Source: a virus
Strand: one strand, 5' to 3'
IMG/VR virus record: IMGVR_UViG_3300020281_000128
Coordinates: 1-24,037 of that record
Length of the DNA: 24,037 nucleotides
In this document: positions 7,008 to 24,037 of the stretch, piece by piece
Layout: every line of letters begins with the position of its first letter
Numbering within the stretch: position 1 is the first letter of the stretch
Notes under the pieces: generated by a model
Seen by the model: only the letters and a program-made list of their open reading frames with translations
The model's database searches: none
What the model was told of the DNA's origin: nothing
Program-made: the position numbers and the translations under genes

Positions 7008-8006
7008 CTAACATTTCTTATAATCGTTTAATTTGGTCAAGGCGCTTAACTTTGAATAAGTATTGGTACTTATAATATCAGCAACTTCACTTTTTGTCAA
7101 TCCTGAAATAATTAAATCGTTTACATCTTTTAGTTGTACATCTGCCGGCCATATTACTACGTTATAACCATCATCAATTACTTTACTCATTCTTTTTATA
7201 ATCTCTTTGTTTCTAGGTTCGTTATCAAATATATAAGTTACCTGTTCAGTTGGCACACGTAGCGTCAAATCAGCACCGCCAGCGGCCAAACAATTATCAA
7301 TAAACATACTATCAATAGGACCCTCAACAATATAAATGTGTTCTTGTAAATTTATATTATCAAGACCAAATACTTTTTGTTTATTTTCATCAAACTTAAT
7401 AGTCAAATATTTTGGTTGTTCATTACCAAAAGCACGACCTTGAAAAGCAAATGGTTTGCCATCTACACCATAGAAAGGTATTATTAATCTAGGGTGTTCA
7501 CCTTTTGTATGAGGAAAAGTATTTGGTTTTACCTCATTAACAAACTTCATAAACTTATCACATAGATATAGTTTACTTAAATACTCTTCAGGTATCTTTC
7601 TTTTTATTACAATTTGTTTCGCTGGGTGTTCATCATTTAGTTCACTAATCTTCTTTAGTTTACTAAAATAATCTATCTGTTCAAACTTTGTAGGTTTGAA
7701 ATCAAATTTAGGTTTTGGCGTGGAGGGCGCCGAGCCTTTATATCTTTCTAATAAGTATTGTTCATACTTTTTAGGGTCTAAAAATTTTAGAAAATTACCA
7801 AGACTTTGACCTTCGCCACAATTATGGCATTTAAAGAACATATCATTTTTTACTTGATATAGATATGCTCTTGCCTTGGTTTTACTCTTTTTAGAATCAC
7901 CACAATGAGGACACCTAAAATTAAAAAGGTAATCACCTTTCTTTTTAAACTGACCTAATCTGCTTGAGATTTCATTAATAAATTTTAAATCAATATATGA
8001 CGACAT
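7008..8006 (-). CDS. DNA primase, T4 gp61 type
   Basis: 332 residues. An N-terminal zinc-binding domain carries Cys32/Cys35 (RCPHCGDSKK) and Cys60/Cys63 (KCHNCGEGQ). It is followed by the RNA polymerase core and a Toprim domain with the glutamate motif IYIVEGPIDSMFID and the aspartate motif TYIFDNEPRN, then PADVQLKDVNDLI. It synthesises RNA primers for lagging-strand replication with the replicative helicase (gp41 in T4). It is the first gene after a sigma70-type promoter at 8017-8045, and nrdA follows within ten bases, so primase and the reductase are probably co-expressed early. The ATG at 8006 is the only reasonable start, and the predicted transcript would have almost no leader. Confidence 0.93.
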   Translation of the reverse strand: MSSYIDLKFINEISSRLGQFKKKGDYLFNFRCPHCGDSKKSKTKARAYLYQVKNDMFFKCHNCGEGQSLGNFLKFLDPKKYEQYLLERYKGSAPSTPKPKFDFKPTKFEQIDYFSKLKKISELNDEHPAKQIVIKRKIPEEYLSKLYLCDKFMKFVNEVKPNTFPHTKGEHPRLIIPFYGVDGKPFAFQGRAFGNEQPKYLTIKFDENKQKVFGLDNINLQEHIYIVEGPIDSMFIDNCLAAGGADLTLRVPTEQVTYIFDNEPRNKEIIKRMSKVIDDGYNVVIWPADVQLKDVNDLIISGLTKSEVADIISTNTYSKLSALTKLNDYKKC

Positions 8007-8016
8007 AGCAACTCAT

Positions 8017-8045
8017 AATATATATCAAAATCAGCAAGAAGTCAA
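8017..8045 (-). promoter_or_regulatory. Predicted host sigma70-type early promoter for primase/nrd operon
   Basis: On the minus strand a -35 box TTGACT (8040-8045) and a -10 box TATATT (8017-8022) are separated by exactly 17 bases in a very AT-rich spacer. It lies in the short gap between the tail-anchored protein gene ending at 8053 and the primase start at 8006. The predicted transcription start is only a few bases before the primase ATG, so the message may be leaderless or nearly so. The site marks the border between the exported/virion gene region and the replication/nucleotide module. Confidence 0.7.
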
Positions 8046-8052
8046 TGCTGGA

Positions 8053-8472
8053 TTATGACATCATCTGGACAATTTGCATAAAATTTCTTGACAATATCCA
8101 GCCAACTACAATAGAACCACCTAGTATTAACCACTTATATTTTTCTAGTGTACCAACTCTCCCGCCAATGTCAAGCTTGAGAGACTTGATTTCAATTAAA
8201 AGTCGTTTTTCTGTCTGTTGGATTTCTTTTTGTAGTTCTTTATAGACCGTGTCTATTTCTACTTGTCTTTCTCTTAATTTACCAAAGATTACCTCATCTG
8301 TTTGTTCTTGTCTGGTAATCTTCTCTTCGTGTACGGCCAACATCTGTTTGATAGATGTTGATACATCTGTCAACCTATCAATAGCTGTGTCTAGTCTACC
8401 GTGGATTGTTTGTACATTTTCCACGTCTTTCTTTAGGCCAGCTATATCAATCAATACGTCTTTGTCGGCCAT
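8053..8472 (-). CDS. Coiled-coil protein with C-terminal membrane anchor
   Basis: 139 residues. The first 110 are hydrophilic with heptad-like spacing (GRLDTAIDRLTDVSTSIKQM, then KELQKEIQQTEKRLLIEIK), predicting a long coiled coil. A single hydrophobic segment follows at about 112-130 (KWLILGGSIVVGWIL), and then a short tail. There is no N-terminal signal, so the coiled coil is probably cytoplasmic with the C-terminus in the inner membrane, though the opposite topology is possible. It is the last gene before the early promoter and closes the run of membrane and exported proteins. The stop of the preceding gene is nine bases upstream of its ATG. From memory, similar proteins occur in marine T4-like phages without known function. 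Confidence 0.8.
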   Translation of the reverse strand: MADKDVLIDIAGLKKDVENVQTIHGRLDTAIDRLTDVSTSIKQMLAVHEEKITRQEQTDEVIFGKLRERQVEIDTVYKELQKEIQQTEKRLLIEIKSLKLDIGGRVGTLEKYKWLILGGSIVVGWILSRNFMQIVQMMS

Positions 8473-8481
8473 TTTTTTCTC

Positions 8482-8826
8482 TTAATTTGCTAATGGATTT
8501 TGAGATTTAAGTTTTAGTTCTTGTATTTGTAATTTTAAAACTTCAACCTCTTTAGAGTTTATAGCAATTTGTTTTTCGTTTTTACTTATACCAGAAATAT
8601 CATTGTCTTTATTATCTTTTTCTAATAAAGAAATTCTTTCATTTGACTTTGCTATCTCTGCTGTATTTTTTGAGATACCTGATACGTCAATGCTAGAACC
8701 TTCTATCGCTGATAGTCTAGTGTTAAATTCTCCCCACGCATAAAAACCACCGCCAATGGTAGCAATCACACCTATAAGGGCTGCATATGTTGAAAGTTTA
8801 TCAACTATTCCGTTTTTCATTTTCAT
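8482..8826 (-). CDS. Membrane-anchored coiled-coil protein with internal repeat
   Basis: 114 residues. One transmembrane segment lies near the N-terminus (about 12-31, TYAALIGVIATIGGGFYAW), followed by a predicted coiled coil. The soluble part contains a repeat: VSGISKN at 48-54 and ISGISKN at 77-83, 29 residues apart, each followed by a similar stretch ending in leucines. The anchor followed by a coil suggests that the coil projects into the periplasm. GAGG lies shortly before the ATG. It sits between the large acidic exported protein and the tail-anchored coiled coil, so these neighbours may act together at the envelope. The function is unknown. Confidence 0.8.
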   Translation of the reverse strand: MKMKNGIVDKLSTYAALIGVIATIGGGFYAWGEFNTRLSAIEGSSIDVSGISKNTAEIAKSNERISLLEKDNKDNDISGISKNEKQIAINSKEVEVLKLQIQELKLKSQNPLAN

Positions 8827-8835
8827 TGTTCCTCT

Positions 8836-10605
8836 TTATTGTAATGATTTCAAGGCAGCTATTTCTGCCTGTAAAGTATTTATTCGTGTTGACACCCTAG
8901 CTAGAGCATTCATTTGAACAGCAATAGGGTCATTAGATATATAGGCGTTTAAACTAGCCTCTTTGTATATTTGTTGCTGTTCTAAAATATTTATTGTTTG
9001 TAAAAACTCTAGGTTACCATCAGGTATTGAACCACCATCTAACTTTTTACTCTTATACGCTGTTAAATCTGGTGCTAGTTCATTCATTCCTTTTGATAGA
9101 ATAAATGAGGTCGCAGCTAACTGCTGGTCAACTCTTTTTAATTTAGCAGTTATCTTTTCTATAATCTTTTCTACTTTTTTACCTATGCTGTCAATGTCGG
9201 TAGTGGCAATCTTCCTGTCCTTGACAGATACATCTGTCTCATTTTCCAGAGTTTCGCCAGCACTCGCCGTCTCCTCTTGTCCTTCTGTTTCCTTATCTTC
9301 AGCCAATTCTGATTCATTAGATACAACTTCGCTCTCTTGTCCTTCCGGTTCTGTTGTCTCTTCATTTGTATCCATAGTTTTCTCTGTCTTAACGGTTTCA
9401 TTTGTAGGCTTTTCAGTAATAGCATTTGGTTCCTCTTCCTTTAGTTCTTCTTTTTTTGTTTCTTTAAGTTCTTCAGTTGGGGTTTCTTCTATTATTTCCT
9501 CTTTTGGTGCCGTCATTGTAGATACATTAGTTTCCTCCTTTACCATACCCATAGGTTTTAACTCTTCTATTATCATATTAGTTGCCTCTTCAAAGAATTC
9601 TTCCTCTGTTAAGTTCTCTTCTATTAAGGCAGTTCCAAATTCTTCTATTAAGTTTTCTTCTTTTAATATACTTTTAAAATTAACTTCAAATAATGCTTTA
9701 AATTCTATCTCTTCTATTTTTAATTCTTGTATTTCTTCTATCTCTATTAATTGTGGTGCAAATTCAAACGTTTCTATTTCTGTTAATTCTGTTAAATTAA
9801 TTTCTTGTAATTCTTCAATTGCAGCTTCAATAGTTTCCTGTGATAATTCTAATTGTTCGTTTGCAAATTCTATTTCTTCCTCTGTTTCTTCAGAAATAGG
9901 TGAGTAATTTATATCTAATAATGTGGCAGTTAAACTTGCACCTAATAAATTAGGACCAATAGAGGCAGTAGAGTTTGTGTCACCACCATCTGTACCTTTC
10001 CACTCCCATTCATAGTTTCTACTACCTGGTAAAGTGTTTGTTACCGTGTCTGTATATGTGTGAGTATTACCATAATAACCAGCGTCATTGTTTCTGGTAA
10101 ATGTGGTTACGGCAAGAAGATTGCCATTAGAATCTGTAATCTTAATTGTATTTGTATAAGTATCTCTTTGACCACCACCTACACCTGATTGACCACACCT
10201 ATAACTTGATGAAGTCCATTCACAATTCTGTACCTCTGTTATTGCATTTAAGGTTACACCACCATCTAAACTATCCGTTGTAGTTGTAAATGAATTGCCT
10301 GATTGTGTTGTAGTTGAGATACCAACAAGTGAACCAGTATCAGAAATGATACCCTCACCTTTTGCTTCTAGTTCGTTTGCAAATGCTTGAATACCACTAT
10401 CAATAGTAAAACCTTGACCTGAACCTACTTTATCAGGTGTATATGAGTCTGTTGTATTTTGATAAGATGATTGACCTGCGCCTGCATTAGGTAACAGGTT
10501 GCCAGATGTAGCTGTTTCTGCTAGACTATTTACGCTTACTAAAGTTGTAAGGGTTAATATCGTCAGCGAAGCTATCAATCTTTTTGTATAATTTGTAAGG
10601 CACAT
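8836..10605 (-). CDS. Large exported acidic protein of unknown function
   Basis: 589 residues. A clear Sec-type signal peptide (basic KR, hydrophobic LIASLTILTLTTLVSV, then a SLA cleavage site near residue 29) opens the protein. Residues about 30-220 are rich in Thr, Ser, Gly and Asn, with one cysteine pair (NCEWTSSSYRC) that could form a disulphide in the periplasm. Residues about 225-470 are extremely acidic, with runs of Glu mixed with Ile and Leu, then Glu/Thr/Ser. The last ~120 residues look helical (TAKLKRVDQQLAATSFILSK, then NILEQQQIYKEASLNAYI). No good Shine-Dalgarno precedes the ATG at 10605, and a short overlapping frame (10526-10654) crosses this start, so translation may be coupled. 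No enzyme family is recognised. An envelope or cell-exit role is a guess from context. Confidence 0.82.
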   Translation of the reverse strand: MCLTNYTKRLIASLTILTLTTLVSVNSLAETATSGNLLPNAGAGQSSYQNTTDSYTPDKVGSGQGFTIDSGIQAFANELEAKGEGIISDTGSLVGISTTTQSGNSFTTTTDSLDGGVTLNAITEVQNCEWTSSSYRCGQSGVGGGQRDTYTNTIKITDSNGNLLAVTTFTRNNDAGYYGNTHTYTDTVTNTLPGSRNYEWEWKGTDGGDTNSTASIGPNLLGASLTATLLDINYSPISEETEEEIEFANEQLELSQETIEAAIEELQEINLTELTEIETFEFAPQLIEIEEIQELKIEEIEFKALFEVNFKSILKEENLIEEFGTALIEENLTEEEFFEEATNMIIEELKPMGMVKEETNVSTMTAPKEEIIEETPTEELKETKKEELKEEEPNAITEKPTNETVKTEKTMDTNEETTEPEGQESEVVSNESELAEDKETEGQEETASAGETLENETDVSVKDRKIATTDIDSIGKKVEKIIEKITAKLKRVDQQLAATSFILSKGMNELAPDLTAYKSKKLDGGSIPDGNLEFLQTINILEQQQIYKEASLNAYISNDPIAVQMNALARVSTRINTLQAEIAALKSLQ

Positions 10606-10654
10606 ATGTTAAAAGGGCAATCCAAATAATAAGGTTAAGGGTAATAGGATCCAT
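10526..10654 (-). CDS. Possible 42-aa small membrane protein overlapping exported gene
   Basis: A short frame starting at the ATG at 10654, ten bases after the stop of the upstream exported protein, reads MDPITLNLIIWIALLTYVPY then KLYKKIDSFADD and ends at TAG (10526-10528). It has one hydrophobic helix followed by a positively charged segment, the layout of a small single-pass membrane protein with its C-terminus inside. It fills the gap between the two exported genes and overlaps the signal-peptide coding region of the 589-residue protein by 80 bases in another frame. The ribosome site is weak (GAAG at long spacing). It could be a membrane effector such as a holin-like protein, or a leader that couples translation. 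I cannot exclude chance. Confidence 0.5.
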   Translation of the reverse strand: MDPITLNLIIWIALLTYVPYKLYKKIDSFADDINPYNFSKRK

Positions 10655-10664
10655 CGGTTATTTT

Positions 10665-11444
10665 TTACTTCGGTGGATTTTGTTTCATAAGGCTTTTTTT
10701 TTGAGCGTTCTCTTTCTCAACTGCCTCATCAACTTCATTCCACTCTTTACTTTCTTTCTCTTCTTCTAATTTTTTTAATTTTTCTTGTACTTTTTTTAGT
10801 TCTTCTAATCTAATTTTTTCTAGTTTCTTTGCTTCTTCTTTATTTGCTTTCTCAACTACTTTTAAATTCTTCACATACTGGTCATAATCTGGTCTTAACT
10901 TGTCGTATTTTTTCCATTGTTGAGTTGCAGCTTTACCAATTTTACCTTCAAACGGACAAGGTGTACCTGATTGTTCCATTGCAAAGAACACTCTAGGGTC
11001 TTGACATAAAATTGATACAGCAGCCACTTTCATACCAAGGTCATTTAAAACTTTTGATAACTTGATACGTTCACAATTCTCGTCTGTTGTATAAGTTCCA
11101 CCTGAAACACCTAAACCAAACGTTGATACACCAGCAGACATACCTACTACACATAAATCCTGGGACATTGCTGACATACTAGGTGCTGATGATTGAGAGG
11201 TAACTCTTGTATCACCAGAGTATGAGTTATTATTAGTTGTAGATGTGGTGTTAGAAGATGAACCACTTTGATATGTAGTGGTAGATTCTTGCGAATACCC
11301 ACCTGATATTGTAGTATTACTTCCTGATGTATTAGTTTGTGAGTTAGTCGTAGCCCCGCTAGAGGTAGTGTCAGCCCAAGCGACTTGTAGTGTTGTAAGT
11401 CCCATTACAAAGAATAATAAAAGACTAATTAATAGTCTATTCAT
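10665..11444 (-). CDS. Exported protein with S/T/N-rich linker and conserved cysteine domain
   Basis: 259 residues. A signal peptide (LLISLLLFFVMGLTTLQ, cleavage after VAWA at about 24) is followed by a low-complexity Ser/Thr/Asn/Gln/Gly stretch to about residue 85. A compact domain at about 95-175 has several cysteines (DLCVVGMSAG, ENCERIKLSK, SILCQDPRVFFAM, GTPCPFEGKIG), and then comes a highly charged Lys/Glu coiled coil to the end. I believe the cysteine domain recurs in other marine T4-like phages, but its function is not known to me. The first ORF after late promoter 11491-11498, it should be made late and exported to the periplasm. AAGGA lies about ten bases before the ATG. Confidence 0.85.
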   Translation of the reverse strand: MNRLLISLLLFFVMGLTTLQVAWADTTSSGATTNSQTNTSGSNTTISGGYSQESTTTYQSGSSSNTTSTTNNNSYSGDTRVTSQSSAPSMSAMSQDLCVVGMSAGVSTFGLGVSGGTYTTDENCERIKLSKVLNDLGMKVAAVSILCQDPRVFFAMEQSGTPCPFEGKIGKAATQQWKKYDKLRPDYDQYVKNLKVVEKANKEEAKKLEKIRLEELKKVQEKLKKLEEEKESKEWNEVDEAVEKENAQKKSLMKQNPPK

Positions 11445-11461
11445 TTATTCTTTATCCTTTT

Positions 11462-11488
11462 ATCAAGTGATTTATTTTTTCACTCAAT
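11462..11488 (-). promoter_or_regulatory. 5' leader hairpin after late promoter
   Basis: On the minus strand ATTGAGTGA and TCACTTGAT can form a nine-pair stem (two G-U pairs) around an A-rich nine-base loop. It starts two bases after TATAAATA, so it would sit at or near the very 5' end of the message for the exported S/T/N-rich protein. The AAAGGA ribosome site follows directly. It may protect the mRNA end or affect ribosome access. It is not a terminator, since no U-tract follows. Confidence 0.5.
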
Positions 11489-11490
11489 AG

Positions 11491-11498
11491 TATTTATA
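11491..11498 (-). promoter_or_regulatory. T4-type late promoter
   Basis: TATAAATA, the T4 late (-10-like) consensus recognised by gp55-bearing RNA polymerase, lies on the minus strand in the 59-base gap between genes, 47 bases upstream of the ATG at 11444. It reads TATAAATACTATTG, close to many T4 late promoters. It is followed at once by a leader hairpin. It would drive the S/T/N-rich exported protein and downstream exported and coiled-coil genes late in infection. Confidence 0.72.
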
Positions 11499-11503
11499 AT
11501 AGT

Positions 11504-11974
11504 TTATTCGTAAACTTTTTTTCTTTCGTAGGCCTGTTCGTGTCTGCCAAGTATTTCTAAAATTTCCCAACTTCCGTCATCTTTTATTCTTACTTTAGCG
11601 TCAACTTTGTCGCAAGTCATATTGTACACGCCATCTTTTTCTTTAGATTCTTTGTACTTTCTCTCTGCTTCTCTTTTATTTTTTAAGCAGTTCATTAAAT
11701 TTTCACTTGCTACGTGGTCTACTAATTTTCTTGTACCGTCTTCATCAACTTCAAAAATACATACTGCAAACACAACACCGTTTTCTGGTTCAGATGAAGA
11801 CTCAGCGTGTTCTTCTTTTAATATGGTTACGTGTTTATGTTTCTTTTCTATTGGGCAAACTTGATGACCGTCATCTCCACAACCTGTGCAATCTGCTAAC
11901 GCTTTAACTGCAAATAAAGATAAGAAAGTTAGTATTATAAAGTATGCGTAAACTATTTTAATTTCTTTATTCAT
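11504..11974 (-). CDS. Small exported cysteine-rich protein, paralog A
   Basis: 156 residues with a signal peptide (hydrophobic VYAYFIILTFLSLFAV, likely cleaved at ALA near 27). The mature N-terminus carries CTGCGDDGHQVC (Cys29, Cys32, Cys40) and a His/Lys cluster. A domain then follows with VVFAVCIF, ENLMNCLKNKREAER (Cys96) and NMTCDKVDAKV (Cys121). This domain aligns with the next upstream protein (11974-12309): both have GVV, EN[LI]xxCLKxKRxAxR and a later Cys followed by two residues and Val. Oxidised cysteine pairs in the periplasm are likely. The start overlaps the upstream stop (TAATG). The function is unknown; the CxxC could bind metal or be redox-active. Confidence 0.82.
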   Translation of the reverse strand: MNKEIKIVYAYFIILTFLSLFAVKALADCTGCGDDGHQVCPIEKKHKHVTILKEEHAESSSEPENGVVFAVCIFEVDEDGTRKLVDHVASENLMNCLKNKREAERKYKESKEKDGVYNMTCDKVDAKVRIKDDGSWEILEILGRHEQAYERKKVYE

Positions 11975-12309
11975 TAGTCAAGTACCTTTAATAATCTGAT
12001 ACCGTATTTTGATTGTTTATCTTCTTGTAATAAACCTTTTACAAGTTTACAAGAAAATATTACTCTCTCACCACCAACCTCTCTACTCGCTACCCTTTTG
12101 GATTTTAAGCATTGGCCAATGTTCTCTTTATATACCCACTCTATCATTTTACCGTTTAGGTGTAAAAGTAAAGCAACTACACCAGATTTTTCATACTTCT
12201 CACCGCCTGTATAAAGTTTCTGCGCTGAGACACTAGACATTAATAAACATAATATTAATGGTATCGCTATAATAAATGCTAATATGCTTGATTTATTGTC
12301 CGTTTCCAT
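11974..12309 (-). CDS. Small exported cysteine-pair protein, paralog B
   Basis: 111 residues with a signal peptide (ILAFIIAIPLILCLLMSS, likely cleavage after VSA at about 29). The mature part of about 80 residues holds SGVVALLLHL, then KENIGQCLKSKRVASR (Cys67) and VIFSCKLVKG (Cys87). It shares its core with the following protein (11504-11974) but lacks that protein's N-terminal CxxC extension. Two cysteines 20 residues apart suggest a disulphide-stabilised periplasmic fold. The ATG at 12309 lies inside the 3' end of the upstream coiled-coil gene, and its stop overlaps the next start. The function is not recognised. Confidence 0.82.
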   Translation of the reverse strand: METDNKSSILAFIIAIPLILCLLMSSVSAQKLYTGGEKYEKSGVVALLLHLNGKMIEWVYKENIGQCLKSKRVASREVGGERVIFSCKLVKGLLQEDKQSKYGIRLLKVLD

Positions 12310-12748
12310 TTTTAAATATTATCTCTCTGTTTGAATCCTTTAATTTTTCCACATCATCACGTAGGATTTTTACGTCTTCTTGTAAACGTTTGATGTTAAC
12401 GCCATTGTTCATCATTGACTCCATAGATTTCTGTATCTGTTCCACCTGTCCAGCAATGTGCTCAATTAACATAAATTGCTCCGAGTCGGCAGGTAAACTA
12501 CCCATTTCACCACGAGGCCATTTAATTCTAAATTCTGTATTTTTTTCCATATCAGCAGAAACCATTTCTACTGCCTGGTTTAAATCTTTTTCTAATAGTG
12601 TTGTGTTGGTTTCTAGTCGATTCAATCTCTCAATTATACCGAAATAACTCCACACTCCGACACCGACAGCTGCGATTATGGCAAGCATATTCCGTATCGG
12701 CATTGATACGGCAGTCGAGTCGCTTACATCCACTCTATCTTTACTCAT
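12293..12748 (-). CDS. Inner-membrane coiled-coil protein
   Basis: 151 residues. A short polar N-terminus is followed by one transmembrane helix at about 19-40 (IRNMLAIIAAVGVGVWSYFG), then heptad-like segments (ERLNRLETNTTLLEKDLNQA, then KRLQEDVKILRDDVEKLKDS) separated by a non-coil stretch with WPRGEMGSLPADSEQF. The expected topology is cytoplasmic N-terminus and periplasmic coiled coil. It starts inside the end of the Rz1-like lipoprotein gene (overlap of eight bases, ATGAGTAA), directly after the spanin pair, so a role at the envelope is likely. The Trp-Pro-Arg-Gly-Glu block is a useful search signature. The function is unknown. Confidence 0.82.
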   Translation of the reverse strand: MSKDRVDVSDSTAVSMPIRNMLAIIAAVGVGVWSYFGIIERLNRLETNTTLLEKDLNQAVEMVSADMEKNTEFRIKWPRGEMGSLPADSEQFMLIEHIAGQVEQIQKSMESMMNNGVNIKRLQEDVKILRDDVEKLKDSNREIIFKNGNGQ

Positions 12749-13121
12749 TATTATCCTCTTCGCTTTCGTAATATTGCTTATATTTATCTATCAGGTCATT
12801 TTGGACCTTTAACTGATTTCTAATTTTAGCAAAGTTTTTCGCTAGTAATTCAAAGTCTTTATCGGTGAGACCGAATAGCACAGGGTCAATACCATCTGCC
12901 TCTAGTTTCTTAAACACTTCTTCAGCATTTTCACTAGTTATAATATGCCAATATATCTCCTCCATTTGTAAAGGAGTTGGTTTTTCTAAATTCAAAGGTT
13001 GTCTTTTTACTTCTTGCTTAAATATCTCTAACTGCTTCACTCCAGCGCAACTAGTAAGGAGTATAGTTAGGGTTAGCAATACTAGGACATTCTGAATTGA
13101 TTTCAGACTTCTTTGTAGCAT
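12741..13121 (-). CDS. Rz1-like outer-membrane lipoprotein (putative o-spanin)
   Basis: 126 residues. A lipoprotein signal with basic N-terminus, hydrophobic VLVLLTLTI and lipobox LLTSC (Cys25, LTS|C) is followed by a soluble part with Pro-containing VKRQPLNLEKPTPLQ and a long helical region ending in acidic residues. Its ATG at 13121 lies inside the 3' end of the membrane-anchored coiled-coil gene at 13051-13521 in another frame, an overlap of 71 bases. A membrane-anchored coiled-coil gene overlapping a lipoprotein gene is the arrangement of Rz/Rz1 spanins, which fuse inner and outer membranes at lysis. It is longer than lambda Rz1. Assignment rests on lipobox plus overlap, not on residue similarity. 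Confidence 0.75.
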   Translation of the reverse strand: MLQRSLKSIQNVLVLLTLTILLTSCAGVKQLEIFKQEVKRQPLNLEKPTPLQMEEIYWHIITSENAEEVFKKLEADGIDPVLFGLTDKDFELLAKNFAKIRNQLKVQNDLIDKYKQYYESEEDNNE

Positions 13122-15929: not shown

Positions 15930-16367
15930 TTACACTAATTTAGCGTAAACTTTAGACATTCCCGTTTTTAATGTTTCGTACTCTACTTGAAGTTTTAAAC
16001 CACCTTCTTTTCTATGAGAAATACCATCATCATTAATATCGGAACCATCTGTGTCCTTGCCAAATCTTCCTCCGCCAAATTTTACTTCGGCTGTAAAGTT
16101 ACCTTTATCACCAGTAGTTTCTTGAACAGGTACAAAAAGACCTATCTTCATTAAGTTGTTTCTAATTTCTTCAACAGCTTGTTGAGCATTCATATACTCT
16201 TTCATTGCTGTGCCACCTAGAAACCCATTAACTCTTTTTAAAACTTCCGGGTCGTGAATGTTATGAACACCAATAGAACCATCTTCAAAAGAGGCAGCGT
16301 CAGGAGTTCCAACGTGACCACCGTCAAGTGTTTCTTTGATGTTAATATGTTGTTTAAAAGTTTTCAT
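15930..16367 (-). CDS. Putative capsid-targeted virion protein (145 aa)
   Basis: 145 residues. MKTFKQHINIKE matches the T4 capsid-targeting pattern closely (MKTYQEFIAE) and ends in IKE|T, a candidate gp21 cleavage site. The mature part has a Gly/Asp-rich region (DGGHVGTPDAASFEDGSIG), a helical block (DPEVLKRVNGFLGG, then NAQQAVEEIRNNLMKIGL), and a beta-like C-terminus with Gly repeats (VKFGGGRFGKD) ending in LKLQVEYETLKTG. I recall similar proteins in marine T4-like phage virion gene clusters. The inferred location is inside or on the head. Confidence 0.8.
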   Translation of the reverse strand: MKTFKQHINIKETLDGGHVGTPDAASFEDGSIGVHNIHDPEVLKRVNGFLGGTAMKEYMNAQQAVEEIRNNLMKIGLFVPVQETTGDKGNFTAEVKFGGGRFGKDTDGSDINDDGISHRKEGGLKLQVEYETLKTGMSKVYAKLV

Positions 16368-16378
16368 ATTACCTTTCC

Positions 16379-16585
16379 TTATTTGTATTTGTCTGATTTC
16401 TTTTTCGTTCCGTCTGAACGAGCAATCAAACCCTTTGCTTTAAGGTGTGCCTTATCTGTGAAACCTGCCTTACCTGCTTTATAACGTTTCATTGCGTCAG
16501 CAGTATTAGGAGCTTTCTCACCTAAAACATCTTCCTCAAAGTCTTTCAAATTCTCATCTTCTATAAAAGATTTAAATTTTTTCAT
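16379..16585 (-). CDS. Small basic putative head-associated protein (68 aa)
   Basis: 68 residues. The N-terminus MKKFKSFIEDENLKDFEEDV is a targeting-like acidic helix, with a possible processing site LGE|KAPNTAD at residue 23. The remaining 45 residues are Lys-rich (MKRYKAGKAGFTDKAHLKAK), ending in KKKSDKYK, and are suited to DNA binding inside a capsid. Its ATG at 16585 overlaps the stop of the coiled-coil gene (16582), giving ATGA. The function is inferred from composition and neighbours only. Confidence 0.75.
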   Translation of the reverse strand: MKKFKSFIEDENLKDFEEDVLGEKAPNTADAMKRYKAGKAGFTDKAHLKAKGLIARSDGTKKKSDKYK

Positions 16586-17347: not shown

Positions 17348-17355
17348 TATTTATA
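17348..17355 (-). promoter_or_regulatory. T4-type late promoter
   Basis: TATAAATA on the minus strand, 69 bases upstream of the ATG at 17279 and directly downstream of the terminator-like hairpin 17357-17379. It lies in the largest intergenic gap of the window (17280-17394). The expected product is a late transcript starting with the fibre-like gene and running into the small virion genes. A weak bulged hairpin (17323-17338) follows it. Confidence 0.7.
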
Positions 17356-17740: not shown

Positions 17741-17748
17741 TATTTATA
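17741..17748 (-). promoter_or_regulatory. T4-type late promoter
   Basis: TATAAATA on the minus strand between the HAD nucleotidase gene (stop at 17762) and the 96-residue structural gene (ATG at 17685), 55 bases from that ATG. It is noncoding, correctly oriented and followed by a hairpin. It separates the early-looking nucleotidase from the late structural unit. Confidence 0.72.
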
Positions 17749-17761
17749 AGAGATTACTATT

Positions 17762-18238
17762 TTATATTAGTTTTTTGAGAAGTCTGATAGTTCTTGAAGT
17801 ATCGCCATTATGAACAACACCTTGTCCACCTCTAGCTCTAAATTCATTGACGTTTTTAGGATAATCGTCTATCAGTATTGAGTTCTTATCTGCGTATTGT
17901 TGTTTTTGAACACGCTTAACAAGATTGATTCTATTTGAGGCAATGCCAAGATTTCTTGACGCCCAAGATTTTTTACCAGGTATACAATTCTTATCGTATA
18001 TATCTTCTACATACGCTGATAAAATTTCTGTATCGTAATTTTTTAAAAAGTTCCAGAGTTGTTTACCACCTGGATTCCAAGGTAATGTAGACCAAAAATC
18101 TTTCTTTGATTTAATTTGACCCCATTTTTCTGACTTACTGCCTTGAGCCCAAACATCTATCTTCTTGCCGGTTAGTTTCTCAGCACCTTTTACAAAGTCG
18201 CATAAGACACCATCCATATCACAATAGATTTTTTTCAT
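17762..18238 (-). CDS. HAD-superfamily 5'(3')-deoxyribonucleotidase-like phosphatase
   Basis: 158 residues. HAD motif I is YCDMDGVLCDF with the nucleophile Asp7 and acid/base Asp9. Motif II is near ILSAYV, a Lys-containing motif III is in LVKRVQKQQYAD, and motif IV is ILIDDYPKNVNEF with paired aspartates. A Trp-rich cap (FWSTLPWNPGGKQLWNF) is typical of the NT5C-like nucleotidase subfamily. It probably dephosphorylates nucleoside monophosphates during nucleotide recycling or pool control, complementing the reductase. It has its own sigma70-type promoter with extended -10 and an AAAGGA ribosome site, unlike its late-promoter neighbours. The substrate is not proven. Confidence 0.87.
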   Translation of the reverse strand: MKKIYCDMDGVLCDFVKGAEKLTGKKIDVWAQGSKSEKWGQIKSKKDFWSTLPWNPGGKQLWNFLKNYDTEILSAYVEDIYDKNCIPGKKSWASRNLGIASNRINLVKRVQKQQYADKNSILIDDYPKNVNEFRARGGQGVVHNGDTSRTIRLLKKLI

Positions 18239-18298: not shown

Positions 18299-18592
18299 TT
18301 ACTTATTATAGTTGATTTTTGGCTCAGTTTCAACAGGTGTTTTTTCTTTTCCTGTCATTGTCTCTTTAGACTTTGCTTTCATTTTCTCGTCTGATTCTGC
18401 TTTTGCTTTATATTCTTTATCTACTTTGTTAAAGAAATCTTTTTTTTCTTGGTCAGACATTGAAGCAATACCTTTGCCAGTTTTTTTAAGTTGTTTTTTA
18501 AAGAATTGTGAATAGGCGTTATCTTTTAAATGCTTAGATACTTCATTAATAGATGACTCTAAACTACCTTCTTTTGATTTAAAATATGACAT
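18299..18592 (-). CDS. Conserved hydrophilic protein (97 aa), head-associated type
   Basis: 97 residues starting MSYFKSKEGSLESSINEVSK. The middle (SQFFKKQLKKTGKGIASMSD, then QEKKDFFNKVDKEYKAK) is a helical block that I have seen repeated in marine T4-like phage virion proteins (FxxxLKK...KKxFFNxVDK). The C-terminus is Lys/Glu/Thr-rich and disordered. Its ATG overlaps the stop of the 1203-residue gene by one base, indicating co-expression. No catalytic motif. The role in the head or DNA packaging complex is inferred from the neighbours. Confidence 0.78.
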   Translation of the reverse strand: MSYFKSKEGSLESSINEVSKHLKDNAYSQFFKKQLKKTGKGIASMSDQEKKDFFNKVDKEYKAKAESDEKMKAKSKETMTGKEKTPVETEPKINYNK

Positions 18593-21500
18593 TATTTTCC
18601 CTTTACTTGTTTTGCTAAATCTTTATCAGCACCACCCCAAGTACCACTTGATTTGGTTACAAATGAATTAACACGAGCTAAAGCCCATTGTACTTGCGTT
18701 GCGCCTGGTCTATGACCGCCTCGCCAAGCTGCCATACCTCTATCATAAACTTTTTTCAATACACCATAAGGCATACCAGATTTTTCTGCCTTCTTTTTAA
18801 CAGCAGCAATACTCTCATATACAGCAGCCGCTGGGTGGTCTTTTTGTTCTTTTCTTGGTTTCATACCTTGTTTTTTTAACCTTTCTATATCAGCTTCGCT
18901 AGGAGCATTTTCTTTTTTAACAGGTGGATTATTTCTACCCATTTTGTCAATTGTAAAACCTTTCTTTCTCAACTCTTGAGCTTTCTTTTGTATATCTTGT
19001 AAAGTTTTACCACCTTCAAAACCTGCGTGTTTACCGTGTTTACTATAAGAAATCATAAAAGGGTCTATTGCTTCAGGCACACAATTTGGTACCTGTTTAT
19101 TACCTTTCTTTTTCATACCTACTTGTTTGTATCCTGTCCAACAAGCTTCGTCTATATCTTTTTCACTAACTTCTTCTTTAAAACTTCCCATTGGTCTAAA
19201 TGTGGTTACTTTATATCCCATTTTTCTAACTGCAAGTTTTGATTCTGAACCACTTGATACAAATGGTATATTTGCTTTTGCTAATTTTTTAAGGTCTGCC
19301 TCTTTAAACTTATCTAATATATTCATAAGTTGTCTTGCTCTAGCAGCATTAATTGTTTTACCTCTAAAAGGTTCGTATTCTCTTTTTAGAATAGCAATTT
19401 GTGATGATGATAAACCTTCTTGTAAATTTTCTTCTTTCTTTAAAATCTTATCTGCAATTTCGTGACCTTTTTTAATTGTTTTCTTTTGTAAAGGTGGTTC
19501 ATCATTCATTACTTTTTTAGCCTGCGCCATACCTATTGCGTAAGCGTCATCTTTTTTCATTTCATTTTTCATAGCTTTCTCTAAACTTTTTGCCTGTTTA
19601 TCGTGTGCCGATACAGACTTTTTAAGTTGTTTTATAATAGGTTTAATTGTTTTTTCATCATCTTTATTTAAGTCTTCTCTTCTATGTTTCTTTTCTTGTA
19701 ATATTCTACCTACGTAATCTAATCTACTTTCATTCTTTTCTGAATTGTCATTTAAACTTACTAGTGAAAGTCCAGATTGAATTTTGCTTATTAACTCTTG
19801 CATATCTTCTATTGAAGCCATTACTTGTTCTTTTTTATATTCCCATTCGTCACCGTCTCTTTCGCTAAAATAAGCAGCATATTGATTTAATTCTTCAAAA
19901 CGGTCTTTTAATTGGTCTCTACGTTTTTTATTTTTAATATTATCAAGTAAGCTTGAAAAATTATCGTTTTCTTCCGAGAATATATCTGAATACATTGTCA
20001 TACTTTCTATAACATCAGGTCTAAATGCTTTAGAACCAGAACCGGCACTTGAACCAGGACTTCCTTTAGTAGGATCCGATGCCGCCATATCTCTAAATTC
20101 AACACCCCATCTCCTTATATCATTGCCAAGTTCACCAAAAACTTTATTGCCTTGTTTTTCATAATCATAACCATCGCCTTCAATTTTGTCAAGTATCATA
20201 TCGGACATTTTATCAAATTCTTCAATATTTTTTTTAACTTTTAATGGTTTGTTTGTTAACTCTGCGACTTTATCTTGTATCTCCATCTGTATTTCATTTT
20301 TAGGAGTATCATCTTCAATTTGAGCCATAATACTTTCTAAATCTTCTGCAACTTCACTCTCACCACTTTCTCTAGCAAATTCAATAGCGTCTTCAATAGA
20401 GCTTGGGTCATTATAATCAAAAGAATTGTCTATCATATCTCCTATTTTCTTTTTAGGTTTTCTAGTATCAGGAGAGTTACCTTTTTTCTTAACTAATTTT
20501 TGTAAATCTTTTATTCCGTCAAAAGCCATTTCTAAACCAGCGGTAACGCTATCTGATTTTGTATAACTATCGTGGTCACCATTTTCGTCCCAACAATACT
20601 CAAATTCAAATGCAATATCTTCAAGTTTTCTCTGTATCTCTTCATCATTAACTTCACTTGCTACGTCCATTAATACGGAAGAAATTTGCTCTGTGCTTTG
20701 AATTGTGCTTAAAACTTCGTCTTTAAAACCTCTCATTGAGTTTTGCATACCTGAACCACGTACACCTTCAACTTCATTTGCTTTTGCCATATCAACCAAT
20801 GTTTTTCCTAATGGTAATAAATCATTTGCTAGTTGGTCTAAATTATTCGGACTATATTCTTGTTTGTTAAATAATTCCATTTGCTTATCAGCAATTTTCA
20901 TTTTTTCTATATCTTTTGCTGGTTTGCCACTATATTTTGCTATCATATCTCTAAATGCTGATTGTGCTTTGTTGGGTTCCATTTCTGCAACATAACTACC
21001 AACATCTTCAAGGTCATTCATAAATTCATCATCTAGTCCCATTTCTCTTGCTTTATCTATGATAGGGTCAAAAGAAAACTCATCATCAAAATCTATTTCA
21101 ATTGAATCGCCATCTTCATTTTCTAAATTACCTTTATCTAGGTCTCTTAAAAAGTTTCTTGCTTTAACTTTAACATCATCAGCTTCTTTTGGTTTACTCT
21201 TTTTACCCGCTTTAGGTTTTTTAGATTTAGGTTTATCAGACTTTGGTTCATCACCTTTACCTACTGCAACTAAACTATCGCCTTTAGATTTATGAGTTAC
21301 CTTACCATCTTTACCATAACGACCAAACTTCATATAGTCCAGACCCATTGCTTTTGCCTTATCGCCAGCAGCCGACTCTGTCATATCTTGCATATCTAAT
21401 TCATCTTCTTTAAGTTTAGGTTTATCAGCGCCTAGTTTAGCAATTTCATCTGAACGTTGTTTTTGCTCTTCTTCTTTTTTTTCTTTTTCCATCTTTTGCT

Positions 21501-22203
21501 TTAGATGTTTATAAGCAATACCAACTTGTAATAATGGTTCACCTGTTTGAGGGTTGACCATTTTATCTTGCGCTGTTCTAGCTCTTTGCGCTTGTTTCTG
21601 TGCGTCTGTTTGTGCTTTTTGTTTTACAGCAACCGTTTGCTCTCTACTTTTTTCTAATTCTTTTTTAAGTTTTTCTACTTCTTTTGCTGGTTCTTCCTCT
21701 TCTTTAACTTCAACAGGCACATCATTATCAGGTGCTACATCATCTTTTTTCTTATCCATTTTTTTAGCAGCTTCAGCCCATTGTTCAACGTTCTCTTTAA
21801 TTTTTTCTCTAGGTGGTTTTATATCTTGAGCGTCTTGAGCAGAATCACCATCTGATTCACCTAGTATTGCTTTTACGGTTTTTACTGAAAGTTTTAATTC
21901 TTTTGCAATCTCGGCCGCTGACGCACCTGCTTTTCTCATTGCGTCTATCTCTGACATTCTGCCTTCAGCAATATCTGATAATAGATTTATACCTGCGTCT
22001 TTGATGGCACCTTGAGTCACCGGATCCATATTCTTAATCATTTTAATTACGGCGGGGGTCACATCTTTTTTAGTTTTAAATTGCCATATTCTTTTGATGT
22101 TTTGAATCTGTCTTGGATTCATTTTTGGTTCTAGGTAACCAGCTTCGCTGATTTTTTGTACCTCTGCCATTGCTTCTGACATTGTTTTTCTATATCTACT
22201 CAT
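18592..22203 (-). CDS. Giant multidomain virion-type protein (1203 aa)
   Basis: 1203 residues, highly charged, without membrane spans. The N-terminal helix ends in KISE|AGYLEP (cleavage after Glu20), a perfect [L/I]xE|A site for a T4-type prohead protease. A helix-turn-helix-like segment lies at about 92-114 (GASAAEIAKELKLSVKTVKA), followed by a long Lys/Glu/Gln coiled coil and very acidic middle domains (about 330-800). The C-terminal part has compact modules: EYEPFRGKTINAARARQL, a Cys block CWTGYKQVGMKKKG...VPNCVP (about 1021-1041), a YSKHGKHAGFEGG segment, and RGMAAWRGGHRPGATQVQW near the end. I recognise the last modules as recurring in marine T4-like phages. An internal head or ejected protein is my inference; its size is unusual. 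Confidence 0.8.
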   Translation of the reverse strand: MSRYRKTMSEAMAEVQKISEAGYLEPKMNPRQIQNIKRIWQFKTKKDVTPAVIKMIKNMDPVTQGAIKDAGINLLSDIAEGRMSEIDAMRKAGASAAEIAKELKLSVKTVKAILGESDGDSAQDAQDIKPPREKIKENVEQWAEAAKKMDKKKDDVAPDNDVPVEVKEEEEPAKEVEKLKKELEKSREQTVAVKQKAQTDAQKQAQRARTAQDKMVNPQTGEPLLQVGIAYKHLKQKMEKEKKEEEQKQRSDEIAKLGADKPKLKEDELDMQDMTESAAGDKAKAMGLDYMKFGRYGKDGKVTHKSKGDSLVAVGKGDEPKSDKPKSKKPKAGKKSKPKEADDVKVKARNFLRDLDKGNLENEDGDSIEIDFDDEFSFDPIIDKAREMGLDDEFMNDLEDVGSYVAEMEPNKAQSAFRDMIAKYSGKPAKDIEKMKIADKQMELFNKQEYSPNNLDQLANDLLPLGKTLVDMAKANEVEGVRGSGMQNSMRGFKDEVLSTIQSTEQISSVLMDVASEVNDEEIQRKLEDIAFEFEYCWDENGDHDSYTKSDSVTAGLEMAFDGIKDLQKLVKKKGNSPDTRKPKKKIGDMIDNSFDYNDPSSIEDAIEFARESGESEVAEDLESIMAQIEDDTPKNEIQMEIQDKVAELTNKPLKVKKNIEEFDKMSDMILDKIEGDGYDYEKQGNKVFGELGNDIRRWGVEFRDMAASDPTKGSPGSSAGSGSKAFRPDVIESMTMYSDIFSEENDNFSSLLDNIKNKKRRDQLKDRFEELNQYAAYFSERDGDEWEYKKEQVMASIEDMQELISKIQSGLSLVSLNDNSEKNESRLDYVGRILQEKKHRREDLNKDDEKTIKPIIKQLKKSVSAHDKQAKSLEKAMKNEMKKDDAYAIGMAQAKKVMNDEPPLQKKTIKKGHEIADKILKKEENLQEGLSSSQIAILKREYEPFRGKTINAARARQLMNILDKFKEADLKKLAKANIPFVSSGSESKLAVRKMGYKVTTFRPMGSFKEEVSEKDIDEACWTGYKQVGMKKKGNKQVPNCVPEAIDPFMISYSKHGKHAGFEGGKTLQDIQKKAQELRKKGFTIDKMGRNNPPVKKENAPSEADIERLKKQGMKPRKEQKDHPAAAVYESIAAVKKKAEKSGMPYGVLKKVYDRGMAAWRGGHRPGATQVQWALARVNSFVTKSSGTWGGADKDLAKQVKGK

Positions 22204-22559
22204 TAGTTATCTACCTTTGCTCCCGCTCTCCATTGGTAACACGACCAATATCTTGCTTTAGTTTTTGGACCAGGATTATCGCAATTGTGCCTTGCTCTGA
22301 AAGATTTACGTCTTTCTGGATTGTCTCTTTTGATACTTAATCCTGTTGTGTCGCCAAACGATACTTTTTTGATTTTATCTCCGTCTCTTACATAGACGTA
22401 AAACTTCTTACTACCACCTCGTATTGGGTCATTAAGTTTGACCTTTTTACCTTGGTACATTGCCTCTTCAATGCCTTCTAATTCGTGTTCATAAATTACA
22501 TCTTCACAAGCCTTATCAATATTATCATATTGTTTAAATGTTCTAACTTTTTTAGTCAT
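22203..22559 (-). CDS. Conserved marine T4-like phage head-region protein (118 aa)
   Basis: 118 residues. The N-terminus contains RTFKQYDNI, similar to the capsid-targeting pattern, and a candidate processing site GIEE|AMYQGK near residue 32. The mature body reads KKFYVYVRDGDKIKKVSFGD, then a striking conserved block DNPERRKSFRARHNCDNPGP, then KARYWSCYQW. The Cys and His residues in the last part (HNC, WSC) could form a metal site or disulphide. I recall this block in many marine T4-like phages near head genes, sometimes labelled as a prohead or scaffold protein; the role is not established. Both ends overlap neighbouring genes (TAATG). Confidence 0.82.
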   Translation of the reverse strand: MTKKVRTFKQYDNIDKACEDVIYEHELEGIEEAMYQGKKVKLNDPIRGGSKKFYVYVRDGDKIKKVSFGDTTGLSIKRDNPERRKSFRARHNCDNPGPKTKARYWSCYQWRAGAKVDN

Positions 22560-24037
22560 TAAATTTTCTCTATCATTTTAGCAACCGCCTCTTTTAGCTT
22601 CGCTTCCCATTGGTCTTTGTATCGTTCCCTATATTTATTCATTGTGGACTCTGTAGCCGCCCACTCTTTTATATCTTTTTTACTAGGTTTTTCTCGCTCT
22701 CTATCCAAGAAACCTTTAACTCTTTTAACATTAGGGTTATCACCACTACCTGGTTTTGATGGTTTGTAAGTAGGGTTTTCAAAACCTGGATAATTTGGTT
22801 CGTTTGGTGTTATGGTTGACGTGTGTTTATAGTAGTCGTTACCAATGTCTGTACTTTCAACTTTGGTTTTGAGTGAGTTATATAACTCGCCAAACATCTT
22901 CTTAAATTTCTTCGTGTGCTTACTAGGTTTTGTTTTTGCTGTCTTATCTCCAGGTGCTGGTTCGTTGTCATTTTTGGTTGTATCTTTTGATTTAAAATGT
23001 TTATCTCTTTTACTCTTAACATCTTTTTTTAGTCCACTATAATATTTTTTAGGTTGCGTTCCTTTTTTATCTTTAATATCTTTATCTTGAGCGAGTCTAT
23101 CAGTATGTGCTTTTGACGCTTCTGATACTGCTTCAAATCCATAATCAACATCTAGGTTATATTCCCTCACGTCTACCTCTCTATCTGCCGATATAGGTAC
23201 ACAATCCCATATCCAAGCTTTGTGTAAATTATTATTATTATCTTCTAATACAATATAGTTAGTACCTTTTCTTTTTACGATACCTTGTATATCTTCTTTG
23301 ACAAAATCAACTTTGTCACCAATGTTAAATATCATTTCTCTAATATATAAATCTCTTATTTGTTGGTGTTCAAAGTCTTTAAATGGTACAACTTCTCTAG
23401 TCTCGCCTGTGTATTGAGCGGCTAGATTCATACCTTGTCTTACTTGTTTCATTATAGCATTTGCGTCAACACCTCTTGGTAGTCCTCTTCTAAAACTAGC
23501 AATGTCATTTGCTGAAGCAGCTGCTCTCATTTTGCTTGCTGACATACCTGATACATTATCAGCATCCGGGTCTCTTTCGCCAGCAGATACAATATTAATT
23601 TTATCAAAGTTATAATAACCGTGTCTTGATTTTACATCATTATACTTTTTAATTATTGTATCAAATTCTCTTACTCTATCGCTACCTACGACCATTACTA
23701 TGTCGCTATAGCCTTTTTTATATAACATTGTACAAATATCTAGTATCATATTTGTAGTATTAATTTCTATTTTTCTTGCGTGTCTAGGAAACATTCTTTT
23801 CATAATCGCTAATTTTTCTCTAGGCGATAATGGATTCTTTTTAGGGTCCTGACTTCTACTTAAATAAATTCTATAATCATCTGTATTAATACTTGCCACT
23901 TTATTAATTAATTTTTCGTGACCAGTTGTAGGTGGATTAAATCTACCAAAACTAAATGCAAGTGATTTACCTCTTGCCTCTTTTAAACTATTAATCTCTG
24001 CGTCTGTAACCACACCATCATCTAATATCTCTTTACA
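22559..24037 (-). CDS. Nucleotidyltransferase fused to KOW-like and virion-tail regions, 5' end beyond window
   Basis: The frame stays open past a GTG at 24011-24013 to the window edge (upstream residues CKEILDDG), so the true start is probably outside. The visible part has SLKE|ARGKSLAF, a candidate prohead-protease site, then the nucleotidyltransferase (NMNAT/cytidylyltransferase-type) signature FGRFNPPTTGHEKL, a VVGSDRVREF strand and the phosphate-binding SGMSASKMRAA. A KOW/SH3-like segment follows (NIGDKVDFVKEDIQGIVKRK, then NYIVLEDNNN). The C-terminal third is Lys-rich, with KPSKHTKKFKKMFGEL and a final helix. It would transfer a nucleotidyl group to a small phosphorylated substrate; NAD-related chemistry is possible. 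The fusion suggests delivery inside the virion. Confidence 0.85.
   Translation of the reverse strand, partial: CKEILDDGVVTDAEINSLKEARGKSLAFSFGRFNPPTTGHEKLINKVASINTDDYRIYLSRSQDPKKNPLSPREKLAIMKRMFPRHARKIEINTTNMILDICTMLYKKGYSDIVMVVGSDRVREFDTIIKKYNDVKSRHGYYNFDKINIVSAGERDPDADNVSGMSASKMRAAASANDIASFRRGLPRGVDANAIMKQVRQGMNLAAQYTGETREVVPFKDFEHQQIRDLYIREMIFNIGDKVDFVKEDIQGIVKRKGTNYIVLEDNNNNLHKAWIWDCVPISADREVDVREYNLDVDYGFEAVSEASKAHTDRLAQDKDIKDKKGTQPKKYYSGLKKDVKSKRDKHFKSKDTTKNDNEPAPGDKTAKTKPSKHTKKFKKMFGELYNSLKTKVESTDIGNDYYKHTSTITPNEPNYPGFENPTYKPSKPGSGDNPNVKRVKGFLDREREKPSKKDIKEWAATESTMNKYRERYKDQWEAKLKEAVAKMIEKI

Follow-up and report, generated by a model that had tools for sequence, protein, structure and literature searches.

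Background

The closest described counterparts of the leader sequences considered here are those of the T4 internal proteins IPI, IPII and IPIII, which have an aromatic or large residue at positions 4 and 7, a hydrophobic residue at position 8 and Glu at position 10, and are cut by the prohead protease gp21 at E|A; the N-terminus of IPIII, for example, is MKTYQEFIAE|A. According to PMC9026906, mutation mapping in T4 assigns positions 4 and 7 to targeting and positions 8 and 10 to processing, with gp21 cutting after L/I-X-E, and IPIII with Asp at position 10 is targeted but not processed. The internal proteins are small and have no known enzymatic activity. T4 Alt, a head-packaged ADP-ribosyltransferase, is a packaged, processed and injected enzyme, and polyvalent effector and MuF-fusion proteins combine several effectors as domains of a single packaged polypeptide (PMC9503650).

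Among cyanophages, a core 'cytitidyltransferase' (T4-GC190 or PHROG 395; SSM1_190 in S-SM1, gp184 in syn9, and S-SCSM1_91, labelled 'NMNAT') is encoded between helicase and primase-nrdA as a single short enzyme, tagged at its N-terminus with a targeting sequence of the T4 type. Mass spectrometry of purified virions detected members of this family in S-SM1 (T4-GC190; PMC3037559), S-SZBM1 (S-SZBM1_140; PMC9146016), S-CREM2 (gp154; PMC10665884) and S-SCSM1 (S-SCSM1_91; PMC9602691). Here we describe a homologous domain, 40-41% identical over 270 residues and encoded at the same location, that forms part of a larger fusion.

Gene and architecture of the fused protein

The sequence analysed, which we call the window, is a 24,037-base IMG/VR record (IMGVR_UViG_3300020281_000128), in which a minus-strand frame (24037-22559) spans 492 codons and is truncated by the end of the sequence. 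It was compared with eighty metavirome relatives, the nearest of them 98% identical; homologues of the enzyme occur in 541 phage records, mostly cyanomyoviruses. In the 98% identical locus (L002) and in further loci the frame continues upstream for ~285 codons that encode a Pol-beta-type nucleotidyltransferase module, and the frame at 22559..24037 (-) is therefore the 3' part of a fused gene. GTG at 24013 was considered as the true start and ruled out, as relatives have the long in-frame coding module upstream. Since the frame extends in this way, SLKE|A (residues 17-21, just ahead of beta-strand 1 at residue 25) is to be read as a module junction: on comparison of sequences, the window protein is the C-terminal half of a fusion protein, with SLKE|A as an internal junction and no N-terminus. 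The first-pass annotation had placed a cleavage site directly before the enzyme, and the E|A site is indeed present, but at an internal junction of a ~740-1010 residue fusion and not as an N-terminal propeptide site.

The full fused protein of relatives has ~740-840 residues and comprises, in order, a leader, the Pol-beta-type nucleotidyltransferase, a linker, a HIGH-fold nucleotidyltransferase, a beta-barrel and a Lys-rich tail. The Pol-beta-type module carries the motif GSxLTxxYRxDADxD, matches MNT and ANT in fold comparison and has a weak Polbeta profile match. In nine complete relatives, of ~960-1010 residues, an extra PAP2 phosphatase module stands in front (Pfam E=2e-8).

In the window protein the beta-barrel lies at 23195..23320 (-; residues 242-281, from predicted secondary structure) and resembles the MscS beta-domain in fold comparison. 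This segment had been described as KOW-like, a label that we drop: no KOW family profile matches the window protein, and a small beta-barrel is predicted instead. The Lys-rich C-terminal region (22562..23182, -) has a sub-threshold DUF5824 match at residues 329-387, and tail residues 286-492 are 19% Lys with a net charge of +14. Such a tail had been taken to be of virion type, yet Lys-richness with a sub-threshold DUF5824 match is by itself no evidence of packaging.

The HIGH-fold domain and its substrate

The HIGH-fold (cytidylyltransferase-like) nucleotidyltransferase domain (23342..23965, -) is recognised by Pfam and PHROG profiles as well as by AlphaFold and Foldseek. CTP_transf_like (PF01467) matches residues 30-137 at E=5e-5 (23.9 bits against a cut-off of 21), and the PHROG cytidyltransferase families 395 and 3041 match, with E=7e-70 and 3e-66. 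In the (T/H)xGH catalytic motif, GRFNPPTTGH (23918..23947, -), residues G31, R32, N34, P35, P36, T37, G39 and H40 are invariant and F33 nearly so; in GMSASKMR (23525..23548, -), the counterpart of ISSTxxR, the same is true of G164, S166-K169 and R171, with M165 and M170 nearly invariant. Further residues invariant in 38 diverse homologues are F30, K67, G118, D120, R121, S151, A152 and G153. The AlphaFold model (pLDDT 84) has Foldseek matches to NadM and NadD with probability 1.00, NMN/NaMN adenylyltransferases matching best, and its Rossmann-like fold together with the (H/T)xxH and SxSxxR motifs places the domain in the HIGH superfamily. A search of the PDB with a profile of the family alignment returned matches to Max only, which were spurious, and fold comparison was used instead. 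The earlier impression of an intact-looking nucleotidyltransferase is thus borne out, FGRFNPPTTGH and GMSASKMR both being present and conserved across homologues; a partial test of whether the active site is misplaced did not show this, as the model folds like NMN/NaMN adenylyltransferases with both motifs conserved.

The same conservation bears on whether a protein of this kind could be a catalytically idle component of the head-assembly core, for which there is precedent in that T4 internal proteins are partly structural (PMC9026906). With active-site residues invariant across lineages of only ~40% identity, and dN/dS of 0.10-0.25 for the window enzyme against twelve relatives, we regard an idle role as very improbable.

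As to substrate, the modelled fold makes NMN/NaMN the single most likely candidate, a leading guess to which we would give somewhat less than an even chance. NMN adenylyltransferase equivalog cut-offs of NCBIfam are not reached by the window protein (TIGR01526, 19.8 bits against 341; other NMN families far below). NadV (PF04095) is absent from all six relatives searched, one of which is a 109-kb fragment, whereas phage NadM is reported in PMC9503650 to be always accompanied by NadV; this weakens a role in NAD salvage without excluding it. The enzyme may instead have RNA ends, phosphopantetheine or some other molecule linked to a nucleotide as its substrate, for instance if it helps to mend tRNA of host or phage that host defences have cleaved, and a substrate of this sort is a serious possibility, if short of probable. 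Besides the missing NadV, it would suit the top single-sequence PDB match, a phosphopantetheine adenylyltransferase aligned via PKKNPL (E=0.14, not significant), and the P-loop kinases and DUF6267 protein with KWDGAPA, like ligase motif I, that are encoded upstream. However, fold comparison favours NMN/NaMN adenylyltransferases, no RNA-repair enzyme was found by profile, and the ligase-like motif of the DUF6267 protein was recognised by eye only. The adenylate-kinase-like, zeta/AAA_33 kinase and DUF6267 neighbours in relatives fit either NMN or other substrates.

Targeting leaders in virion-detected homologues

All four virion-detected enzymes start with a T4-IP-like leader and E|A: MKKFSAFLNE|A (the leader of the S-SM1 enzyme), MRFRQFIIE|A, MKNFSSFLTE|A and MKSFLQFLKE|A. 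Leader and E|A recur in 151 of 216 standalone copies, and 64 of the 216 have MKTLKELL without a cleavage site, these copies being related sequences whose counts are not independent events. The latter are the HTVC008M-type subfamily (L082:7986-9776, L254-L322), which keeps the targeting-sequence start with no E|A. When the T4 rule for positions 4, 7, 8 and 10 was applied to S-CREM2, it picked 5 of 51 virion proteins against 1 of 166 others (P=0.003), in a test that took its positions from T4 but was designed after a glance at some S-CREM2 N-termini. The virion proteins picked were a SAM hydrolase, gp13, an APH-like kinase, gp136 and the cytidylyltransferase. In S-SZBM1 the rule was not enriched (0 of 28 virion proteins against 3 of 184 others; relaxed, 1 of 28), the tag of the enzyme there being one residue shorter.

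In S-CREM2 the genes concerned, with that of a Cas9-like protein, lie at L088:3837-5081, 7704-10313, 10310-10546 and 10579-12846. The leaders of the SAM hydrolase, gp13 and the APH-like kinase read MKDFDSFLEE, MKDLHSFLTE and MKRFDAFLTE, and the Cas9-like virion protein has LRFASFMAE|A from residue 17, after a 16-residue extension. Judged by their N-termini, these leaders support true packaging of the four proteins.

It could be argued that the enzyme is an ordinary auxiliary metabolic enzyme, for NAD or CoA-type synthesis, that is made in the infected cell, carried over into virion preparations and only by coincidence leader-like. That abundant proteins may co-purify was raised by the authors of the S-SCSM1 (PMC9602691) and S-CREM2 (PMC10665884) papers themselves, and the enzyme was identified from few peptides (2-3). 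Such carry-over would nevertheless have had to recur in four independent phages, in every case with an enzyme bearing a targeting leader with E|A; proteins of the adjoining cassette are likewise detected in virions (the S-SCSM1 record annotates seven cassette genes between mazG and primase, 89-93, 95 and 97, as virion proteins), and the tag is enriched among detected S-CREM2 proteins. We therefore consider carry-over unlikely.

For window-type phages the comparison is less direct, and no virion proteomics was found for any of them. Most standalone homologues and some of the fused relatives show the 4/7/8/10 and E|A/S pattern, but the MKTFKESIID-type leaders of the nearest relatives of the window gene fit it only in part, the N-terminus of the window gene itself lying beyond the window. 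Peptidase_S77, the gp21-type prohead protease, is present in the 109-kb relative, HTVC008M, Melnitz and S-CREM2 and not in the window fragment. Strict-motif scans of the HTVC008M and 109-kb relative genomes gave a single match per genome, since most of the leaders in them are variants of shorter length. The suggestion from the sequence alone that the enzyme is packaged thus agrees with a family that is virion-associated in four cyanomyoviruses and has a T4-type targeting leader with E|A, but packaging of homologues had already been published.

Conserved Glu residues at module junctions

The LKE|A of the window (23975..23986, -; residues 18-21) is a predicted prohead-protease site between two nucleotidyltransferase modules. 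Its counterparts in relatives differ in sequence (LKEA, MHEA, IMEA, LPEA, LNEA, KTEA and ISEA before the HIGH-fold domain), and of 48 distinct linkers, 36-58 residues long, 47 have E|[AGQN] a short way ahead of strand 1. No other site of this type in the whole fused protein is so well conserved: spread over two columns of the alignment, it is present in 67 of 71 sequences, and the spacing of its Glu to the HIGH-fold domain equals that of the Melnitz N-terminus, MKKFSEIIE|ARGDTAVFTFGRF. The leaders of the first module, before IIDIPRR, similarly vary in length, with Glu and the following Ser or Ala kept in fused relatives (MKTFKE|S, MKQFKDYILE|S, MRFKDFINE|S, MKKFREVIE|S, MKTFLE|A, MFNLFKE|A), and PAP2-fused relatives retain this leader inside the protein, as IYPNINMKKTFKE|SIIDIPRR. 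Glu is missing from the strand-1 position in standalone subfamilies that have their tag elsewhere, and the HIGH fold therefore does not need Glu there.

The window protein taken singly is uninformative in this respect. It contains two [LI]xE[AGS] sites, the second being an LKE|A near the C-terminus (22586-22597, -) within the Lys-rich region, against 0.6 expected in shuffles (P=0.12, not above chance), so that any significance comes only from conservation across relatives. A packaged protein might accordingly keep the internal LKE|A as an uncut relic of gene fusion, the mature head protein being one multi-domain polypeptide: T4-type sites need little sequence and match by chance in many proteins, and the IHE|Q, INE|N and KTE|A junctions depart from the T4 L/I-X-E or from the usual small P1' residue. 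A relic would not be expected to persist as this Glu does across linkers of 36-58 residues, to be the best conserved such site in the whole protein, or to lie, as the junction does, in a low-confidence and probably flexible stretch of the model, and we hold it to be rather unlikely, though less so than carry-over.

Neighbouring cassette genes

The next cassette gene (22203..22559, -) encodes 118 residues that are 71% identical to HTVC008M gp131, which likewise lies 3' of the cytidyltransferase, and is followed by a gene for a 1203-residue protein (18592..22203, -) with DUF5824 at its C-terminus. The last 72 residues of the latter (18592-18813, -) align at 76% identity with the C-terminal end of gp130, the HTVC008M cytidyltransferase; by these alignments, the DUF5824 tail is a module that switches partners among cassette proteins.

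Two smaller cassette proteins have targeting-sequence-like starts: one at 16379..16585 (-) begins MKKFKSFIED on inspection of its N-terminus, and its counterpart (MKKFKSFIEDKNL) is the sole strict-motif match in the 109-kb relative (G001); the other (15930..16367, -), a homologue of HTVC008M gp139, begins MKTFKQHINIKE. A 5'-deoxyribonucleotidase-like protein (17762-18238, -) is without a leader in the window, whereas the HTVC008M (MKYSAFKAETLNLHLVQE) and Melnitz (MKSIVEVTSINE) homologues are extended at the N-terminus, each extension closing with Glu. In the 109-kb relative (L025:2555-5194) the fused gene has upstream of it genes for a DUF6267 protein with the leader MFSFKGFFTQE and the KWDGAPA motif, an adenylate-kinase-like protein starting MKFVERFLRE, and a zeta/AAA_33 kinase with MKSFNDIRYLQE|GLYDP, the HTVC008M counterpart of which reads MIPFILKE|GLYDP.

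Boxes of the T4 late-promoter-like form TATAAATA number 4 in the window against 4.5 by chance and give no support for late expression. Three of the four (11491-11498, 17348-17355 and 17741-17748, -) lie ~45-70 bases ahead of minus-strand starts.

Discussion

We consider it probable that in a marine T4-like phage of the pelagimyophage type the window fusion is packaged into the head as a multi-enzyme precursor and processed by a gp21-like prohead protease. An N-terminal targeting leader, such as MKTFKE|S, MKQFKDYILE|S, MKKFREVIE|S or MKTFLE|A of relatives, would draw the fusion into the prohead core, where a gp21-type protease would cut after the conserved Glu at each junction, including LKE|A of the window. 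Cleavage would free the Pol-beta-type and the HIGH-fold (NMN-adenylyltransferase-like) nucleotidyltransferases inside the head, and the freed enzymes would enter the host with the DNA at infection and may act before any phage gene expression. We infer that the phage of the window packages the protein, cuts it at the internal junction and ejects it, and we likewise infer its catalytic activity and its substrate.

Such a precursor would differ from each of its described counterparts. T4-GC190 is a short tagged enzyme, whereas the window encodes the C-terminal part of a Pol-beta-type (in some relatives also PAP2) fusion with a putative internal cleavage site; and where the T4 internal proteins are small, cargo of the window type is enzymatic and fused in series. 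The likeness to T4 Alt drawn in the first-pass annotation is apt as logic, given a virion-associated family with a T4-type leader, but goes no further than concept: there is no homology, no ADP-ribosyltransferase profile match and a different chemistry, and the window enzyme is no member of that family. Unlike polyvalent effector and MuF-fusion proteins, the window type, in which no MuF or portal fusion was found, has a CTS-like leader with conserved candidate cleavage sites between modules. With NadM, NadD and NadR it shares the fold and the (T/H)xGH and SxSxxR active-site layout, but not a Nudix or ribosylnicotinamide-kinase fusion nor NadV, and it has a beta-barrel and Lys-rich tail. The enzyme family, its presence in virions and the T4 tag were known before; the link between tag and enzyme and the conserved inter-module cut sites appear to be new, in that neither a capsid-targeting sequence for these enzymes nor conserved cleavage sites between fused enzyme modules are described in the parts of the open-licence literature consulted.

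It is tempting to speculate that a portable capsid-targeting tag loads a set of nucleotide-handling enzymes into marine T4-like heads, partly as protease-cut polyproteins, as a first-strike kit carried by phages whose hosts are abundant in the ocean. On this reading, which we offer tentatively, the kit might include the two nucleotidyltransferases, the PAP2 phosphatase, P-loop kinases and the DUF6267 protein, and in S-CREM2 the Cas9-like nuclease, SAM hydrolase and APH-like kinase. Cyanophage proteomes repeatedly report virion-borne enzymes, contamination being given as a caveat and no mechanism of sorting being offered. A T4-type leader with a matching cleavage site is a sequence rule, applicable to metagenomic phages as well, that helps to tell packaged cargo from carry-over, and it would let one predict the marine phage proteins that are active as soon as infection begins; the polyprotein-like arrangement would be an addition to head maturation.
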